Shown here piece by piece: positions 4,810 through 47,597 of a DNA stretch of 64,000 nt. Both the position numbers and the translations under genes were made by a program. A model generated the notes under the pieces. It did no database searches. It saw only the letters and a program-made list of their open reading frames with translations, and was not told where the DNA came from. The stretch comes from an uncultured Hyphomicrobiales bacterium (lineage in GTDB: Bacteria; Pseudomonadota; Alphaproteobacteria; Rhizobiales; Beijerinckiaceae), in assembly GCA_903824185.1 (NCBI GenBank), contig CAIJVU010000063.1, forward strand, positions 1 to 64,000. The letters run 5' to 3'. Each line of letters begins with the position of its first letter. Position 1 is the stretch's first letter.

Positions 4810-5391
4810 CTAGCGGGTGGCTCCGGGAACCCAGAGCACATCGCCTTTGCCTTTTCCGTTGACGTAGCGGGAGGCCACAAACAGAAAATCCGACAGGCGG
4901 TTGATGTAGCGCAGCGCGGCGGCACCAATTTTTTCATCGGGATCTTGAGCTAATTCCACCATAATCCGCTCCGCGCGGCGGCAAATCGTGCGTGCCAGAT
5001 GCAAATGGGCCGCGGCCGCCGTTCCGCCGGGCAGAACAAAGGAGTTCAGCGGGCTTAATTCGGCATTCAGCTGGTCGATTTCATTTTCAAGACGTTCGAC
5101 TTGCGCCGGAATCATGCGCAAAGGCTCGTAAGGCAGCGGTTCGACGGTTTCAGGCGTGCATAAATCAGCACCCAAATCGAACAAGTCATTTTGGATTCGG
5201 CCCAACATTTGATCGACCAGCGGGTCTTGGGCCCCTGTGTAAAGCCGTACCATGCCGATGGCGGCATTGGTCTCGTCGACGGTGCCGAAGGCGTCAATGC
5301 GCAGATCATGTTTGGACCGACGCTCGCCGGTGCCCAGACCTGTCGTGCCGTCATCGCCGGTGCGGGTATAGATTTTGTTGAGTTTGATCAT
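4810..5391 (-). CDS. PduO-type cob(I)alamin adenosyltransferase
   Basis: This enzyme transfers the adenosyl group of ATP to cob(I)alamin or its precursor to make adenosylcobalamin. The 193-residue protein has the PduO-family ATP-binding start Y-T-R-T-G-D-D-G-T-T (residues 8-17), the D-A-x-G-x-V-D-E motif near 33-40, an R-R-A-E-R segment and the N-R-L-S-D-x-L-F-V motif near the C-terminus. Standing next to etfBA and a 3-hydroxyacyl-CoA dehydrogenase, it could serve B12-dependent methylmalonyl-CoA mutase or similar. The window also has cobS and cobT at 42.6-45.6 kb, far away. Confidence 0.93.
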   Translation of the reverse strand: MIKLNKIYTRTGDDGTTGLGTGERRSKHDLRIDAFGTVDETNAAIGMVRLYTGAQDPLVDQMLGRIQNDLFDLGADLCTPETVEPLPYEPLRMIPAQVERLENEIDQLNAELSPLNSFVLPGGTAAAAHLHLARTICRRAERIMVELAQDPDEKIGAAALRYINRLSDFLFVASRYVNGKGKGDVLWVPGATR

Positions 5392-5401
5392 CGCTTTCGG
5401 G

Positions 5402-5950
5402 TCAGAAACTATAGCCGAGGCGCAGACCCATATTGGTCAGACCGCGATTACGCTCACAAAATCCGGCATTGGAGGCATGTTCGATGGTGGCCAGAAGGCT
5501 CAGATTGCTGCTGAAGCGGTACCCTAAAGAGCCTGACTCTCGGAAGGCTGCGGAGCAACCCATGGCATTGCGGCCTTGCACAAGTGTATTGCCGGTTTTG
5601 CCGTTGTTGAGATCACCCCCGAAAGAGGCTTCCACAAACAAGGTTTTGGTCAGGTCATAATCCCAGGTCAGGCCGGTATAGCCATGGCTGGTTTTGCCAG
5701 CCGTATTGATGGTGGCCCCCAAATGCAGCCGCGGCACCAAGATTTGCCAAGAACCGGCATTGATGGGCAGGCGCGGGGAAAGCATTTCGGCATTGATATC
5801 TGCGGAGCCTTTTTCGGGGCTGACGGGATCATGGGCAAAAACACCACCGCGCAATTCATAGCGGTTGAAGGCATCTTGCGCCTGTGCGGCACCCACATTC
5901 ATGATCAAAAGGCCGGTTAAAAAGGCCGAAGCAAGGGAAAACGCGCGCAT
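5402..5950 (-). CDS. PagL-like outer-membrane protein (acyloxyacyl hydrolase family)
   Basis: A 182-residue protein with an N-terminal signal peptide ending at A-Q-A (about residue 24) and a C-terminal beta-barrel strand ending G-Y-S-F. This architecture fits the lipid A 3-O-deacylase PagL family. The H158-A-S160-N161-A motif matches the catalytic His-x-Ser-Asn of PagL. The glutamate that completes the triad in the Pseudomonas enzyme would fall near residue 172, where this protein has Thr, so activity cannot be assumed. It sits 10 bases upstream of the adenosyltransferase gene, with no obvious metabolic link. Confidence 0.75.
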   Translation of the reverse strand: MRAFSLASAFLTGLLIMNVGAAQAQDAFNRYELRGGVFAHDPVSPEKGSADINAEMLSPRLPINAGSWQILVPRLHLGATINTAGKTSHGYTGLTWDYDLTKTLFVEASFGGDLNNGKTGNTLVQGRNAMGCSAAFRESGSLGYRFSSNLSLLATIEHASNAGFCERNRGLTNMGLRLGYSF

Positions 5951-6402: not shown

Positions 6403-8961
6403 TCAGGGTTTGGCATTGAGACCATCCGATTGCAAGAGCCGTTTGAGATAATCCATCTCGGCTTGCGGGCGATCCATCTCGCCCAGCCTCCGTCTGAGCT
6501 CTTCCAATAAAGCGCGGGCGCGCTGTTCGGGTGCGGATTGCAGGCCGTCGCCTTGCATGCGCGCGCGGTCATTGCTGCCTTGTGAGGGTAAGGGGCGACC
6601 TAAGGGATCGCGTCCATTGCTGTTTTGCCCATTGTCCCCCTGACCGTTTTGCCGGTCTGCTTCCTCCTGATTTTGGCCGGTATCGCCGTCCCCGTTTTGT
6701 TGCCGCAAATATTTGGCCAGTTGATCCGCCCCCTGACGCAAGCCTTGAATGGCGCGATTTTGGGCGTCGAGCGCGTCGCTGTCCTGCCCCTGTTTCAAAG
6801 CCTCTTCGGCTTCCCGCATGGCACTATCAGCGTCGGCAAAACCATCTTGATCAGCCCCGTTTTGCTGCATGCCCTGCCGCAGGGCGTCGAGTTTATCGCG
6901 CAATGCTTTTTGGTTGTTTTCAAGATCGGACAGTGGCCCATCCGGATCCGCTTTTTGCTCTGATCGCGGACGTTGACGGTCTTGCTGGCGCTCCAGACCT
7001 TCGCGATAGGTTTTGTCACGCAGATTTTGCTGGTCGCGGGTCATATCCTGCAAGGCCCCCAATGCGCGCTGTTGGTCAGAGGGCGACGCTTGACCATCGG
7101 GGCGGGCGGTTTGCAGGTTGCGGGTGATCTGGCGCAATTGCTCCAACAGGCGCAGAGCTTCTTCCTGATCACCCCGTTGCATGGCCTGATCCAATTTGTC
7201 CATCAAGGCGCTGAGATCTTGGGGCGTGATCGTTTGCCCGCCCTCCCGTTTTGACAAGTCGTTTTGGGAGGGATCTTGCTTGCGCATTTGATCGGTCAGG
7301 GCCAGCAATAAGCGGTTCATGGCTTGGCGAACCGCCTCGCTTAATTGCTTCAATTCATGTGCGGGGGCTTCGCGTGCGATGGCTTCTTTTAAGGCCGCTT
7401 GCGCTGCTTGCAGGGCCTTTTGCGCATCATCGGATCCTTCCGTTTCGATCATCACCGCCATGTCCCATAACCACTGGGCGGTTTCGATCAAACGCGCTTT
7501 ATCAGCGGGACGCGATAACCAGCGCCGCGCCCTGTTTAATCCGAGATAGGGTCCAAATTGCGGAGTGAACAAATCCGGCGCAACCATCAAAGCCTCCAGC
7601 GCCATCAGAACCTTTTTTTGCTGATGCGGCGCACGAACAAGAAGTTTGCGTTGTTCATCCAGTGCACGCGCCAGAGGATGCGTAAAAAGCCGTTGCGGTA
7701 GAGTGAAACGGAAAGTTTCGCTCAGGCCGTTTTGTTGCACATCATCGTGCACACTCAAACGGGCTTCCACCGTTAATCCGCTCCATAAATGCTCCTCATA
7801 CCCCAATGGCTGTTTTGTCTCGCCACGGCGTTGATCGGGCATAAAGCTCAGGGCAGCGCGTGGGGGGTCGAGCAAGGGGGGATGGCGGATGATCTGCCCG
7901 TCTTCCACGATGCCGGTGATGTCGACAAAGCCTTGGGCTATGCCATAATCATCCTGCCAGCCATAGGTGATCAACAGGGATTCTTGTCCCTCTGCCACAG
8001 GGGCTTTGATCAGTTTGATGGTCGGTGGCTTATCGGCAAGGGCTGTGAAGTGAAAGTCCACGCTCCGGCGTCCAAGCAAGGCCACTTGAAGTTGGGCATC
8101 ACCACTGATCTTGAAACGTAAATCCTGCTCGTGTTGTGACGTATTTTGATCGTTCGGGATCAGCACCAAGGGGCCCTTGATCGTCGTGCTGATCGTGTCG
8201 CCGCCAGAGCGGCGTAAGACGAGGACTGACCCTGTCGGGACTGTGTAAAGAGGCTGGTCGCCGTCCTTGAATGTTGCGAGATCCAGTATGATCGGCGCTA
8301 TCTGGGTATAGGCGGGCGGGTCGATCCAGCCATCTTCGCGCAAGGCGATGGTGTTTGTGTGCGACCATTGAAAAGAGGTGGCCGCCCAAAGCCGTTCTGG
8401 CCGCTCGGCGCCGGCGGCAAAAAAACCGGTGACCAGAATAAGCACGGCCAAATGCCTGAGAGCACAAGGATCCAAGCGGCTCATGATGATGCGTGGTGGC
8501 GCGCATGAAAGCTGCATGATCGAGGCCGCCAGTTGCGCACGGTGTTTTTGCCACAACGCTTCGGTCAGCGGGTCATTGGCAGAAAGCGCCAATGGATCGC
8601 CAAAGCTGCTGGCGGGGCGGTTTTTGAAATCCTGATCAAGGCGAAACAGGGCGTCGCGCTTGGATGGCCATTGCAGCAGTCCTTGACGGGCGCGCAAGGC
8701 CAAGCCGATCATCAAGAGGGTTGCCAAGAGGCCGATCAGGATTGCGCTGCCATTCCATGGCGTAGGCAGAATCAAAAACAAGCCAAGCCAAATCAATCCC
8801 AAAAGACCGATCCAAAGGCTCAAAAGCAAAAGAGCGGGCGGGCAAAAAAACTCAATGGCCAGCGTCACACGCGACAGCTGCGACAACCACGCCAGCCTCT
8901 GCTGGGCAGCGTGGTCAGACGTCTTCTGCGTCATCGTCAGCTGTTTTTCAGACACGCCCAA
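6403..8961 (-). CDS. TIGR02302/DUF4175-type membrane-anchored protein
   Basis: An 852-residue protein of unknown function, common in alphaproteobacteria. Two strong transmembrane segments lie at about 36-66 and 71-90 and a third near 165-180. They are followed by a probable periplasmic region with beta-rich character and a long C-terminal part (about 470 onward) dominated by Gln, Asp, Glu, Ala and Arg. That tail has coiled-coil heptads and strongly Gln/Asn/Gly-rich stretches near 690-810. It is the last gene in the argH – lipoprotein – lysA run. Its position suggests a link to cell envelope or diaminopimelate supply, but that is inference only. M10 is an alternative start. Confidence 0.8.
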   Translation of the reverse strand: MGVSEKQLTMTQKTSDHAAQQRLAWLSQLSRVTLAIEFFCPPALLLLSLWIGLLGLIWLGLFLILPTPWNGSAILIGLLATLLMIGLALRARQGLLQWPSKRDALFRLDQDFKNRPASSFGDPLALSANDPLTEALWQKHRAQLAASIMQLSCAPPRIIMSRLDPCALRHLAVLILVTGFFAAGAERPERLWAATSFQWSHTNTIALREDGWIDPPAYTQIAPIILDLATFKDGDQPLYTVPTGSVLVLRRSGGDTISTTIKGPLVLIPNDQNTSQHEQDLRFKISGDAQLQVALLGRRSVDFHFTALADKPPTIKLIKAPVAEGQESLLITYGWQDDYGIAQGFVDITGIVEDGQIIRHPPLLDPPRAALSFMPDQRRGETKQPLGYEEHLWSGLTVEARLSVHDDVQQNGLSETFRFTLPQRLFTHPLARALDEQRKLLVRAPHQQKKVLMALEALMVAPDLFTPQFGPYLGLNRARRWLSRPADKARLIETAQWLWDMAVMIETEGSDDAQKALQAAQAALKEAIAREAPAHELKQLSEAVRQAMNRLLLALTDQMRKQDPSQNDLSKREGGQTITPQDLSALMDKLDQAMQRGDQEEALRLLEQLRQITRNLQTARPDGQASPSDQQRALGALQDMTRDQQNLRDKTYREGLERQQDRQRPRSEQKADPDGPLSDLENNQKALRDKLDALRQGMQQNGADQDGFADADSAMREAEEALKQGQDSDALDAQNRAIQGLRQGADQLAKYLRQQNGDGDTGQNQEEADRQNGQGDNGQNSNGRDPLGRPLPSQGSNDRARMQGDGLQSAPEQRARALLEELRRRLGEMDRPQAEMDYLKRLLQSDGLNAKP

Positions 8962-43678: not shown

Positions 43679-45559
43679 ATGTCCTCAAGCAATCGCAAGC
43701 CCGCACAGCCGAAAGAAACACCCACCGAACCGTTCAAGCGGTCGGTGGCCATGGCGATGCGTGCTTTGGCGCGGCGTCCGGATCTCGAAGTCACCTATTC
43801 CTCCGATCGCCCCTCTTTGGTGGATGAGCGCGCCCGCCTGCCCGAGCCGCCCCGTCGCCTGTCGCCCCATGATGCGGCGATCATGCGCGGTTATGGCGAT
43901 TCCATGGCGCTGCGTCTGGCTTGTCACGATCAGGCCCTGCATCGCAAACTGACCCCGCAGGGCGACGAGGCAAAACAGGTGTTTGATGCGGTGGAACAAG
44001 CCCGCGTCGAGGCCATCGGCTCGCGCCGCATGCAGGGCGTTGCGGGCAATATAGGCGCCATGCTCGATGACAAATATCACCGCGGCAATTACCACGAGAT
44101 CACCGATCAGGCCGATGCGCCTTTGGCCGATGCGCTGGCCATGATGGTGCGCGAGCGGCTCACCGGCCTGAAGCCGCCGCCCGCCGCCCAAACCTGTGTC
44201 AATTTGTGGCGCGACACGATCGAGAAAAAAATCGGCCCCGAACTCGACAAAATGGGTGAACATATCGAGAGCCAGTCGCATTTTGCCAAATTGCTGCGCG
44301 AGATGCTGACCACGCTGGAACTGACCGAAGACTCAGCGCTTGATCCCAATGACAGCGAGGACGACGATCAGGACAATTCCTCCGACGACAATCAAAACAG
44401 CGAGGACGGCGAAAGCTCCGAGGACACAAGCTCCGAAAGCGAGCAGATGGAGCGGTCGGACGAGGCGTCCGACGAGATGGAAGACGGCATGCAAGACTCG
44501 CCCGACGGTCCGGCGGGTGAAATGTCGGAAGACATGGACAATGCCGAGGGGGATGACAGCGCCGAGCCGACGCGTCCGCCGGTTGCCATGGAGAACAAGC
44601 GCAACATCACCGACTACAAAATCTTCTCGACCAAATTTGACGAGATCATTCTGGCCGAAGACCTCTGCGATGCCGAGGAGCTGACCCGCCTGCGCGCCTA
44701 TCTCGACAAGCAGCTGTCGCATTTGCAAGGCGTTGTGGCACGGCTCGCCAACCGCTTGCAGCGCCGCCTGATGGCGCAGCAAAACCGCTCTTGGGAATTT
44801 GATCTGGAGGAGGGGCAGCTTGATCCCGCGCGCCTGACGCGCATCGTCATTGATCCGCAGCAGCCCCTGTCCTTCAAGCGCGAGCAAGACACCAATTTCC
44901 GCGACACGGTCGTCACGCTGCTGATCGACAATTCCGGTTCCATGCGCGGGCGGCCCATTACGGTCGCGGCCACCTGTGCCGATATTCTGGCGCGCACGCT
45001 TGAGCGCTGCGGCGTCAAGGTCGAGATTTTGGGCTTCACCACCCGCGCCTGGAAGGGCGGACAGTCGCGCGAGGCGTGGCTGGGGGCGGGCAAACCCGCT
45101 CTGCCCGGGCGGCTCAATGATCTGCGCCATATCGTCTATAAATCAGCCGATGCGCCATGGCGGCGTGCGCGCAAAAATCTCGGGCTGATGATGCGCGAAG
45201 GCTTGCTCAAGGAGAACATCGACGGCGAGGCGCTGGACTGGGCGCATCAGCGTCTGTTGGGTCGGCCCGAGCAGCGCCGCATCATGATGGTGATTTCCGA
45301 CGGTGCGCCGGTGGATGATTCCACGCTGTCGGTCAATGCGGGCAATTATCTCGAACGGCATTTGCGCCATGTGATTGAAGAGATCGAAACCCGCTCGCCC
45401 GTCGAATTGCTCGCCATCGGCATCGGCCATGATGTGACGCGCTATTACCGCCGCGCGGTGACGATTGTGGATGCCGAAGAACTCGGCGGCGCCATGACCG
45501 AAAAATTGGCCGAATTGTTTGACGACAAAGCACCGACGAAAAAAACCGGCGGGCGGTGA
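43679..45559 (+). CDS. cobT: Cobaltochelatase subunit CobT, with element-proximal 3' end
   Basis: CobT is the scaffold subunit of aerobic cobaltochelatase. The 626-residue protein has an N-terminal helical domain, a long acidic linker rich in Asp/Glu/Ser (about 217-305) and a C-terminal von Willebrand A domain with the metal-site motif D-N-S-G-S-M near 418. It is full length. Its last 72 aligned codons (45320-45535) are repeated 1,055 bases downstream behind an AT-rich nuclease-like gene. After the aligned part this copy ends T-K-K-T-G-G-R, while the downstream copy ends with a longer Arg-rich tail. The present 3' end may therefore have been supplied by an inserted element. Confidence 0.95.
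45320..45535 (+). repeat. Direct repeat, copy 1: end of cobT
   Basis: 216 bases aligned without gaps to 46375-46590. Eleven of 72 codons differ by one base each, five of them within codons 2-8 of the block. Ten of the eleven differences are silent; the other changes Leu to Arg. Immediately after the block the two copies diverge completely. Confidence 0.93.
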
Positions 45560-45700
45560 GGGCGTGTGTTTAAATTGGATGTGTCACCATCCTTATTAGA
45601 TGATCAAATTTAGGCCATTAAGTATTAATAGTAATCTCATTACTTTTAGTAATTTGCGTCAAGTTAATATTAAAATGTGACTCTGGACTGTGGTGCAATA
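45560..45700. promoter_or_regulatory. AT-rich leader of the GIY-YIG gene
   Basis: The base composition drops sharply to AT-rich right after the cobT stop. The leader contains AGTAAT-CTC-ATTACT at 45630-45644 and a further AGTAAT at 45648-45653, a plausible operator or promoter region for the nuclease-like gene. No consensus promoter is claimed. Confidence 0.4.
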
Positions 45701-46324
45701 ATGGCTCAGATTATTTATATTTTAACAAACGAAGCAATGGACGGACTAATAAAGATTGGCCGAACAACAACCAGTGTTGAGCAGCGCATTAAGGAGCTGG
45801 ACAACACGAGTATTCCTTTGCCATTCCAATGTTTCTTTGCTGGCGAGGTAGCAGATTGCGCGCATGTTGAAGCGCATCTTCATTTAGCCTTCGCGGATAA
45901 ACGTGTGCGAAATAATCGTGAATTTTTCCGCGTTGATGCAAACCAAGTCCGTGCAGCAATAATGCTCGCAAACCCAAAAGATATTACACCAAAAAATGAT
46001 GTCGTCGTTGATGCGAGTGATGTTCAAGCCTTGCAAAAAGCAGCAGCGACACAAGATAGACGTTCAAGGCTAAAATTCAGCGAACTCAACATACCAGTTG
46101 GTGCAAGACTCGTGTTCATTAAAGATGATTCCGTGACTTGTACTGTTGTTGCTAATGGTGAGGTTGATTTCCAAAATAAAATTATGTCACCCAGCAAAGC
46201 AGCATTGGTTGCTATTCAGGCAATGGGCTACAAATGGTCAGCTTTAAGTGGCAGTGATTATTGGAAATATGAAGACGAGACACTCACAGCTCGGCGATTG
46301 CGTTTAGAGGATGAACAAGAGTAA
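45701..46324 (+). CDS. GIY-YIG (T5orf172) nuclease-like protein with DUF4357
   Basis: A 207-residue protein in AT-rich DNA unlike its neighbours. The N-terminal part fits the T5orf172 branch of GIY-YIG nucleases: Y-I-L at 6-8, I-K-I-G at 17-20, R29 in V-E-Q-R-I-K-E-L, E57/H59/H61 in V-E-A-H-L-H-L-A-F and E74 in R-E-F-F. The C-terminal 80 residues fit DUF4357 (V-G-A-R-L-V-F, M-S-P-S-K-A-A, Y-W-K-Y). ATG 45701 is chosen because the family motif begins right there; the frame is open to 45677. The gene lies exactly between two copies of the cobT 3' end. Nuclease activity and homing are inferred. Confidence 0.85.
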
Positions 46325-46335
46325 TACCCAGTATT

Positions 46336-46632
46336 ATGGGTGCGGTTTCAGGTAGGGCTTTAAAGGTTCATTTTTCCACTCTGTCGGTTAACGCTGGTAA
46401 TTATCTCGAACGGCATTTGCGCCATGTTATTGAAGAGATCGAAACCCGCTCGCCCGTCGAATTGCTTGCCATCGGCATCGGCCATGATGTGACGCGCTAT
46501 TACCGCCGCGCGGTGACGATTGTCGATGCCGAAGAACGCGGCGGCGCCATGACCGAAAAATTGGCCGAATTGTTTGACGACAAAGCTCCTGTCAAACAAG
46601 CAAAGACGCGCACCCGCAGAAGAGTGGCGTGA
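46336..46632 (+). pseudogene. Displaced 3' end of cobT (headless copy)
   Basis: A 98-codon frame whose residues 14-85 match the CobT C-terminus with one substitution, followed by an Arg/Lys/Thr-rich tail (T-R-T-R-R-R-V-A) that the full-length cobT lacks. The first 13 residues are unrelated to CobT. It lacks the rest of the VWA domain and the metal-site motif, so it cannot work as CobT alone. It is either the original host cobT end pushed downstream or an end carried by the inserted element. Reading frame and protein sequence are well preserved. Confidence 0.85.
46375..46590 (+). repeat. Direct repeat, copy 2: displaced cobT end
   Basis: Partner of 45320-45535 at an offset of 1,055 bases. Upstream of the block only scattered positions match cobT. 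Confidence 0.93.
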
Positions 46633-47026
46633 GGCTGGCGTATATCTATCGCACCCTCGTCACATCCTCGCCATCAATCATGGTGTGATGCCCTCATTGC
46701 GTCATCGCGAGCGAAGCGACGCGATCCAGACAGGCCTTGTTGTTGATGACGCGGAAGCGCAACACGGCTCAGCTATCTGCGCCATATCTGCCATCAGCAA
46801 CGGTTCTGTCTGGATTGCCACGGCGCTTCGCGCCTCGCAAAGACGCTGTGACAGGCACCTACAAAAAATTTGCGTGCGGCCTTGCGTAAGCATAGCAGCA
46901 TTATTTCAGAAACAGTCAATGGCAGCAGGCTGCGTCCCTGAAGGACTTAACAAAAACCCGCCTCACCTCGCTTGCCTGAATAGTTTCGGTATTAAAATCC
47001 AGCACATAAATGATTGTTTCAATATC
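46633..47026. other. 394-base non-coding patch with palindromic element
   Basis: Lies between the displaced cobT end and the toxin gene. It contains the imperfect palindrome at 46701-46844. A 223-codon open frame crosses it but runs antisense into the toxin gene and shows no protein signature. The remainder, 46845-47026, shows nothing I recognise. Confidence 0.6.
46701..46844. repeat. Imperfect palindromic (REP/MITE-like) element
   Basis: The left arm (46701-46748, starting GTCATCGCGAGCGAAGCGAC) and right arm (46792-46844, ending CGCCTCGCAAAGAC) are inverted copies with mismatches and small gaps. The core includes GATCCAGACA against TGTCTGGATT. About 43 bases separate the arms. The arm sequence resembles the dispersed 'cattgcgagcgaagc…gcaatcc' palindromes seen in many bacterial genomes. 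No transposase is encoded within. Confidence 0.75.
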
Positions 47027-47347
47027 TCACTCAAACAAATCAGCATGTGTGCCCGCTCTGACAAAAATCACCTGCTCATTTTCAATCTGGTAAATGAGCA
47101 AAAAATCACCGCCGATATGACATTCACGATAGCCGTTCCATTCCCCCTTCAGCGGGTGGTCCAGCCATTCCGGTCCCAAAGCTTGGTCATTGGCCACCAG
47201 CAAGAGCATGACTTCCTTCAAACGCGGCATGTCAAAGCGGCCTGAGCGCGAAAGACGCTCCCAGTCTTTTTTGAAGTGCTTTGTAAAATCGCAGGAGCGC
47301 GGTCGTACCGCGCGTTTTGCGTCAGTGGGCTTTTTTATCGAGGGCAT
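47027..47347 (-). CDS. YafQ family type II toxin
   Basis: A 106-residue RelE-superfamily ribonuclease toxin that cuts mRNA on the ribosome. All residues reported as important in E. coli YafQ are present with the same spacing: H64, H77, D81 and H101 (H-P-L-K-G-E-W, Y-R-E-C-H-I-G-G-D-F, A-G-T-H). The start lies inside the antitoxin gene (26-base overlap), as is usual. The protein has about 14 extra basic residues at its N-terminus; a downstream start is possible. Confidence 0.93.
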   Translation of the reverse strand: MPSIKKPTDAKRAVRPRSCDFTKHFKKDWERLSRSGRFDMPRLKEVMLLLVANDQALGPEWLDHPLKGEWNGYRECHIGGDFLLIYQIENEQVIFVRAGTHADLFE

Positions 47348-47597
47348 TGATCAAATCCTGCCCCGATGAAAAGCCTTTGTTTCGCTGGATCAGCAGGGCG
47401 CGTGCTTCCCGCATGGCGTCTTGGGTTTCGGCATTCGGTATTTTGAGTTCGAACGGCAATCCTTTTTCGCGGGCGATACGGGTGAGCGTCATCCGCACGG
47501 CATCGGATACGGTCAATCCGAAATAATCAAGAACAGCCTCAGCCTCTTGCTTGATTGCGCCATCAATGCGGGCACGCACAAATGCATTGGTGGTCAT
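47322..47597 (-). CDS. RelB/DinJ family antitoxin
   Basis: A 91-residue antitoxin. Residues 5-50 form the DinJ-like ribbon-helix-helix DNA-binding domain (V-R-A-R-I-D, G-L-T-V-S-D-A-V-R-M, then P-F-E), and the C-terminal half would wrap the toxin. It is upstream of and overlaps the yafQ-type toxin gene; such pairs repress their own promoter. The start follows a GGAGAA-type Shine-Dalgarno on the minus strand. Confidence 0.92.
   Translation of the reverse strand: MTTNAFVRARIDGAIKQEAEAVLDYFGLTVSDAVRMTLTRIAREKGLPFELKIPNAETQDAMREARALLIQRNKGFSSGQDLINALDKKAH

Follow-up and report, generated by a model that had tools for sequence, protein, structure and literature searches.

The window analysed here comprises 64,000 nucleotides (nt) of contig CAIJVU010000063.1 from an uncultured Hyphomicrobiales bacterium and contains an intact cobT gene whose 3' end occurs a second time downstream, with a gene for a GIY-YIG nuclease lodged between the two tails. 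The cobT gene (positions 43679-45559, + strand; 626 amino acids (aa)) was recognised as an open reading frame (ORF) matched by the Pfam families CobT and CobT_C, and scored 976.5 bits, above the cutoff of 759, with the CobT equivalog TIGR01651. A repeat search of the window returned a direct repeat of ~75 codons of the cobT tail (225 nt, 94% identical, spacing 1,055 bp), for which the chance expectation is E about 1e-98. Its first copy (45311-45535, + strand), delimited by the direct repeat and by codon comparison, is in frame with the gene, and its second copy (46366-46590, + strand), identified by ORF, repeat and Pfam searches, is headless and lies in a 98-aa ORF (46336-46632) whose sole Pfam match is to positions 148-219 of CobT_C. 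Between the tails, an AT-rich leader of 141 bp (45560-45700, + strand; 33% GC) runs from the cobT stop to the nuclease gene (45701-46324, + strand; 207 aa, 43% GC), and a gap of 41 bp (46325-46365; 46% GC) separates the nuclease stop from copy 2; the GC content of the cobT head is 62%. The nuclease gene is the single + strand ORF of at least 70 aa between the tails, the ORF list of the window contains no integrase gene there, and the tail-nuclease-tail segment occurs once in the source genome. The layout described in the initial annotation, a cobT end recurring downstream with the nuclease gene as the sole gene between, the upstream copy completing a full-length cobT and the downstream copy headless, was confirmed by these searches.

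Comparison with genomes of the same genus identified this segment as an insertion at the cobT 3' end. In G001 and G004, cobT lies about 0.16 kb from rpmB, without the nuclease and without a second tail. The corresponding interval in the window measures 2.17 kb, including a YafQ/RelB toxin-antitoxin pair (47027-47597, - strand; ORFs and Pfam) between copy 2 and the right border of the interval, rpmB (ribosomal protein L28; 47729-48028, - strand), which was named by eye from its translation and stands in the same place in both sisters. The sister intervals are too short to hold the RelB/YafQ pair, which may have arrived together with the insert. Of two further genomes, G003 has only the cobT start, at a contig end, and G002 has no cobT match; the nuclease was not found in any of the four.

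Across the class, a query with the cobT tail, which remnants weaker than E=1e-3 would escape, matched 291 of 385 alphaproteobacterial genomes and gave two matches in four of them. Because the second matches in G162, G266 and G303 were 31-48% identical and fell within other ORFs of about 340-390 aa, a true second tail is present in the window genome alone (1/291). Within the family, cobT was present in 242 of 248 genomes, a same-orientation second tail beside cobT was found in none of the 12 other genomes with two matches, and tandem cobT tails were absent elsewhere among the 242. The initial annotation had proposed that the nuclease may target cobT and bring a replacement end; the insertion itself is supported, the targeting and the replacement are not, on evidence given below, and a search of the class and family genomes turned up no insert-free allele whose tail is that of copy 2. 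Tandem cobT ends lacking the nuclease and empty tails equal to copy 1, which had been named as evidence to the contrary, were likewise not encountered. An inverted 37-residue cobT-tail remnant with a stop codon was observed ~2.3 kb from an intact cobT in G555 (L242, G555:C3:390965-391075). That the segment is an assembly artefact joining two strains is scarcely credible: the genome is a draft in 82 contigs, but the two copies differ in sequence, the gene order on either side is conserved, and completeness is 100% with a contamination of 0.16%.

Divergence of the two cobT tails

Copy 1 and copy 2 were compared over 45319-45535, where 10 of their 11 differences are synonymous against 24% expected for random changes (p=6e-6); the tails therefore diverged as parts of working genes. 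Over 210 nt, each of the 58 relatives, the two sisters among them, is nearer to copy 1 than to copy 2, and at the single replacement (Leu to Arg) both sisters and all 56 others have the base found in copy 1. The differences are concentrated at the left edge of copy 2 (5/11 in its initial 25 nt, p=0.004), and the two tails continue into dissimilar C-terminal extensions, a combination that would be expected of a mosaic. The GC content at third codon positions (GC3) lies below that of the cobT head by 0.093 in copy 1 and by 0.186 in copy 2, against a range of -0.089 to +0.076 among 47 relatives, which hints at a foreign origin, more so for copy 2, and is no proof of it. A foreign origin of copy 1 was considered and rejected: a test for a breakpoint with genus g13 as comparator was positive (p=0.0045), but g13 had been picked for its similar tail, and with all relatives head and tail did not differ (88/200 versus 8/24, p=0.39), nor did they within the conserved part (8/24 versus 8/24). 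Since the g13 signal vanished with all relatives, no breakpoint is claimed. Judged from these comparisons, both tails appear once to have been functional, copy 2 being the odd one, and either may be the native copy. Short intergenic repeats 3' of copy 2 (46699-46855) are common to nine further places in the genome, and the DNA there therefore fits native sequence. Palindromic-looking DNA resembling this stretch also lies 3' of cobT in L005 and L128.

Duplication of the cobT tail in place, in this genome itself and preceded or followed by the arrival of the nuclease, would account for two tails that are closer to each other, at 94%, than to any relative tested (best match of either tail 182/210). 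However, a free headless copy should gather mostly replacements rather than the silent differences counted above, and we consider this explanation very improbable.

The nuclease and its relatives

Pfam placed T5orf172 and MUG113 domains at residues 4-87 of the 207-aa ORF, above curated cutoffs (67.5 bits versus 20 and 65 versus 22.3), and this branch was matched in 30/30 aligned family members, among which Y6, K18, G20, R29 and E74 are invariant. An AlphaFold2 (AF2) model of the nuclease (predicted local distance difference test (pLDDT) 79.2, predicted template modelling score (pTM) 0.51, low-confidence linker at 101-122) was used for fold comparison. The N-terminal domain of the model resembles HIGLE (Z 7.6) and Slx1 (Z 7.3), and its C-terminal domain (about 120-206) resembles the C-terminal part of CcrM (Z 11.2, 81 residues, root-mean-square deviation (rmsd) 2.7) and MPND (Z 9.0, 82 residues, rmsd 2.6). 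A CcrM/MPND-like (RAMA-like) fold is thus predicted for the C-terminal domain, the corresponding domain of CcrM likewise being a RAMA domain. The DUF4357 domain that had been assigned to the gene was not recovered: the window protein does not match it at E<=1, and it is absent from the 18 families matched by any of the 30 members. NCBIfam gave no match for the nuclease. PADLOC returned a full-length match to PDC-S57 (E=5e-73, 243 bits, residues 2-205 against positions 5-209 of a profile of 212), for which no curated cutoff is given; PDC candidates are usually assigned by genome context, whereas the window nuclease lies outside any visible defence locus.

Relatives of the nuclease, full or partial and with weak matches included, were found in 27/385 class genomes and 28/397 family genomes. 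The nearest of all, 85% identical, belong to two Polynucleobacter genomes (L062, L063), where they overlap a helicase gene by 14 nt; the helicase of L062 has DrmD (DISARM-type) as its best match, and no duplicated ends were found at these loci. DNA similarity between the window and L062 (600 nt, 77%) ends at the nuclease gene, the leader lying outside the match, and the match to L063 includes at most 13 nt of leader. Other relatives have type I (L104) or type III (L066) restriction genes or a DrmD-like helicase (L077) as neighbours, further restriction-like neighbours were named by eye, and the overlap with the DrmD-like helicase gene together with the restriction genes supports a defence role. 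In the tree, the window nuclease is sister to the DISARM-type member (100/99), and the tail-flanked nucleases are scattered without forming a clade.

Integrase-like genes, named by eye, occur near the Polynucleobacter relatives and at L091/L095. They would suit an insert that is the remnant of an island, put into the cobT 3' end by a site-specific recombinase and since pared down to a single gene; restoration of a gene's 3' end by islands and prophages, for example at icd, is well known. Against this origin, which we judge quite improbable, no integrase remains between the tails, similarity between the copies is lowest at the left edge, the part in which a crossover core should be identical, and no other island was met at cobT in 291 genomes. 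A phage origin was also rejected, as the family was present in 4 IMG/VR loci and in 102/50,697 phage records, all with less than 80% query coverage, and so was a plasmid origin, with matches in 31/72,556 plasmid records, of which 4 cover 80%, all at <60% identity.

Members of the family were also found behind core genes on the same strand, 14, 2 and 31 nt behind rpoD in three Rhodobacterales genera (L065, L067, L068; a clade in the tree, 98/92), and behind nrdB (46 nt), atpC (112 nt), mfd (88 nt), gatB (19 nt), an ABC ATPase gene (24 nt), a PdhB-like gene (285 nt) and bipA (117 nt), as well as behind 5S ribosomal RNA (rRNA; L112, L115) and transfer RNAs (tRNAs; L074, L099, L108). The upstream genes were identified using Pfam for L065, L078, L070, L036, L042, L060, L041 and L258, by their shared last 40 residues for L067 and L068, and using Rfam or ARAGORN for the RNAs. 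A core gene stands upstream in 15/87 neighbour rows (78 from surveys and nine loci read singly, some rows repeating a place), a figure that is descriptive because no chance estimate was made. At L042, behind gatB, repeats of the nuclease gene start (47 nt at 91% and 22 nt at 95%) lie about 105 and 550 nt after the gene, as if they were leftovers of truncated nuclease copies.

Duplicated ends at other loci

Direct repeats of at least 34 bits across the nuclease were found at 6 of 71 testable loci, against 3 of 284 random intervals from the same loci. The 5S end with its terminator is present in three copies at L112, and identical duplications cover 46 nt of tRNA-Pro at L074 and 20 nt of tRNA-Gly at L099, so that the expectation of finding this family beside the duplicated 3' ends of other genes was borne out at some places. 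An insert before tyrS at L076 is framed by a duplicated tyrS 5' end (68 nt, 91%; about 4888-4955 and 7522-7590), and direct repeats not assigned to any gene end lie at L100 (314 nt) and L058. Most relatives of the nuclease lack such a repeat, L115 at 5S included. Repeats at L039, L058, L061, L080 and L102 were rejected as protein-gene ends; they are inverted, palindromic or short, or belong to an RNA pair. At L080, from an Adlerbacteria genome, two full-length, same-strand LOOT RNAs (RF03000; 4826-4943 and 5819-5940) flank the nuclease (5001-5594), and the LOOT RNA could be an insertion site. Among 18 rows in which a headless tail behind the upstream gene was sought (four repeating a listed place), the window alone was positive; for atpC at L070 this test took the ORF before atpC, and the repeat search gave no tail-like repeat there.

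The 5S site was followed through the family of the L112 genome, a group of marine actinobacteria. A 5S match was obtained in 31/42 genomes, six of which carry one to three extra headless 5S ends downstream, nine in total. The cassettes at these six loci (L197-L202, in G645, G692, G672, G679, G673 and G666, respectively) are each closed by a headless 5S 3' end with its terminator. The nuclease family occurs in 4/42 genomes and occupies the 5S site in G645, with tails, and in G648, without them; other cargo of the cassettes includes an AIPR protein (Pfam) and lipoprotein-like, membrane and other ORFs named by eye. As the tail-duplicating inserts are without this nuclease in 5/6 genomes and carry other cargo there, the layout arises without it. 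Of 22 5S loci examined, 16 are tail-free, some of these having 0.4-3.3 kb between 5S and the next gene, and empty sites are found in relatives (L203, L205, L209). The 5S terminator abuts the next gene in G685, G683 and G687, and the last headless end stands at the same junction in G645, G679 and G666.

Cargo or engine, and comparison with known systems

The reading that we favour, with middling confidence, is that a defence-type nuclease came in as the cargo of an insertion joined through cobT-tail homology. It builds on what is observed, namely the duplicated tail, the intact cobT, the absence of the insert from two sisters, the divergence of the tails under selection and the match to a defence family. 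The payload would be a gene for a two-domain nuclease, GIY-YIG plus RAMA-like, most likely a restriction or anti-phage enzyme and perhaps a reader of adenine methylation. This gene may have arrived with a cobT tail from a diverged but related lineage and would then have recombined with the resident cobT within or beside the tail, an event leaving cobT whole and a second, headless tail behind. The nuclease would probably be passenger rather than engine, as is suggested by the 5S inserts, which mostly carry other cargo.

Several points weigh against this reading. At the locus, no recombinase or other insertion agent is visible, no donor and no empty allele carrying either tail was found, and cobT was not reused as an insertion site (1/291 class genomes with a cobT tail); many relatives of the nuclease, moreover, lie directly behind core genes, as homing genes do. 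On the side of the protein, the CcrM/MPND fold match rests on a model with a pTM of 0.51, Foldseek by itself found nothing at E<=0.001 (best E 5e-3, to CcrM), a search of PDB sequences with the family profile was empty at E<=10, and Pfam RAMA was matched in 4/30 members, all below its cutoff of 35.2 bits, with a best E of 5e-4 and one score shown at 19.7 bits. Nor is any defence activity known, and the literature search found no paper on PDC-S57.

An alternative in which the nuclease is the engine would make the locus the bacterial equivalent of fungal mitochondrial mobile ORFs (mORFs): the nuclease would cut insert-free cobT near its 3' end, and repair would copy in the nuclease together with a replacement tail, leaving the old tail headless. 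The layout is shared with mORFs, of which that of atp9 has a GIY-YIG enzyme (PMC3630166, in the sections drawn on here), T5orf172 enzymes are treated as homing enzymes in phages in the portion of PMC10448857 used, relatives stand directly behind rpoD, nrdB, atpC, gatB, mfd, bipA, 5S rRNA and tRNAs, and catalytic-type residues are conserved. However, copy 1 and not copy 2 is nearer to the sisters and to every other relative compared, no headless tail was found behind rpoD (3 loci), nrdB, mfd or gatB, the 5S layout occurs mostly without the nuclease, and the closest relatives reside in a defence-type locus; we therefore regard homing at cobT as unlikely. The same divergence pattern, the 5S inserts lacking the nuclease, the DISARM-type helicase loci without a duplicated end and the PADLOC defence candidate leave without support the earlier suggestion that the nuclease targets cobT and brought its replacement end. 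A bolder generalisation, rather unlikely in our view, would have GIY-YIG plus RAMA-like nucleases drive an element widespread in bacteria, one that cuts downstream of conserved genes (cobT and the eight sites listed above for relatives) and inserts with a restored 3' end, a restriction-like enzyme doubling as homing enzyme and moving defence genes to safe sites behind essential genes.

At cobT, candidate restriction-type nucleases and inserts duplicating the 3' end of a gene, which are usually treated apart, are joined. If the nuclease drives insertion, bacterial chromosomes would have their own version of the fungal mORFs; if it travels as cargo, as in the favoured reading, the locus would illustrate the entry of single defence genes into genomes with no integrase involved. 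This question is testable at the 5S site of marine actinobacteria, where empty and filled alleles are both present. In a search of the literature on free-standing bacterial homing genes and gene-end-restoring elements, no paper with this layout was recognised from titles and the starts of abstracts.

The known systems were compared in the portions of the cited papers drawn on here. Phage T5orf172 homing genes, which carry CapR or related Zn-finger domains and have essential genes as neighbours (PMC10448857), share the catalytic domain and essential-gene neighbours with the window family, which, unlike them, is rare in phage collections. GIY-YIG-RAMA fusions, mentioned as possible adenine-methylation-reading type IV enzymes (PMC11037411), are like the window nuclease in domain order (the first domain judged by Pfam, the second by its predicted fold). 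They figure in that paper only as an observation for future study, and methylation reading by RAMA is contested there; MPND is named as a RAMA protein, and its preference for adenine methylation could not be confirmed.

Mitochondrial mORFs, described for atp6 of Allomyces and for atp6, atp9, cox2 and nad3 of Glomus, consist of an endonuclease ORF that has the intact end of a gene on one side and a second, headless copy of that end on the other, as at cobT. In mORFs the upstream end is foreign, the headless end is as in the sister species, and the ends are 63-81% identical (PMC3630166), whereas at cobT the ends are 94% identical and the upstream end is the one nearer to relatives. The cobT locus was not classed as an mORF because a defining feature, a foreign upstream end with a native headless end, was tested for and not seen. 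The additive island cassettes of Ca. Actinomarinales were described with tRNA repeats, the single mention of 5S in the text searched referring to the rRNA operon (PMC7771536). They concern tRNA genes, whereas cobT is a protein gene whose site was used once in 291 genomes, and use of the same site for different cargo in relatives was not seen at cobT, with 1/291 class genomes and no other tandem tail among the 242 family genomes. No integrase is named for them in the text searched, just as none lies between the cobT tails, and the cobT insert resembles them in being a small cassette closed by a repeat of the target-gene end.

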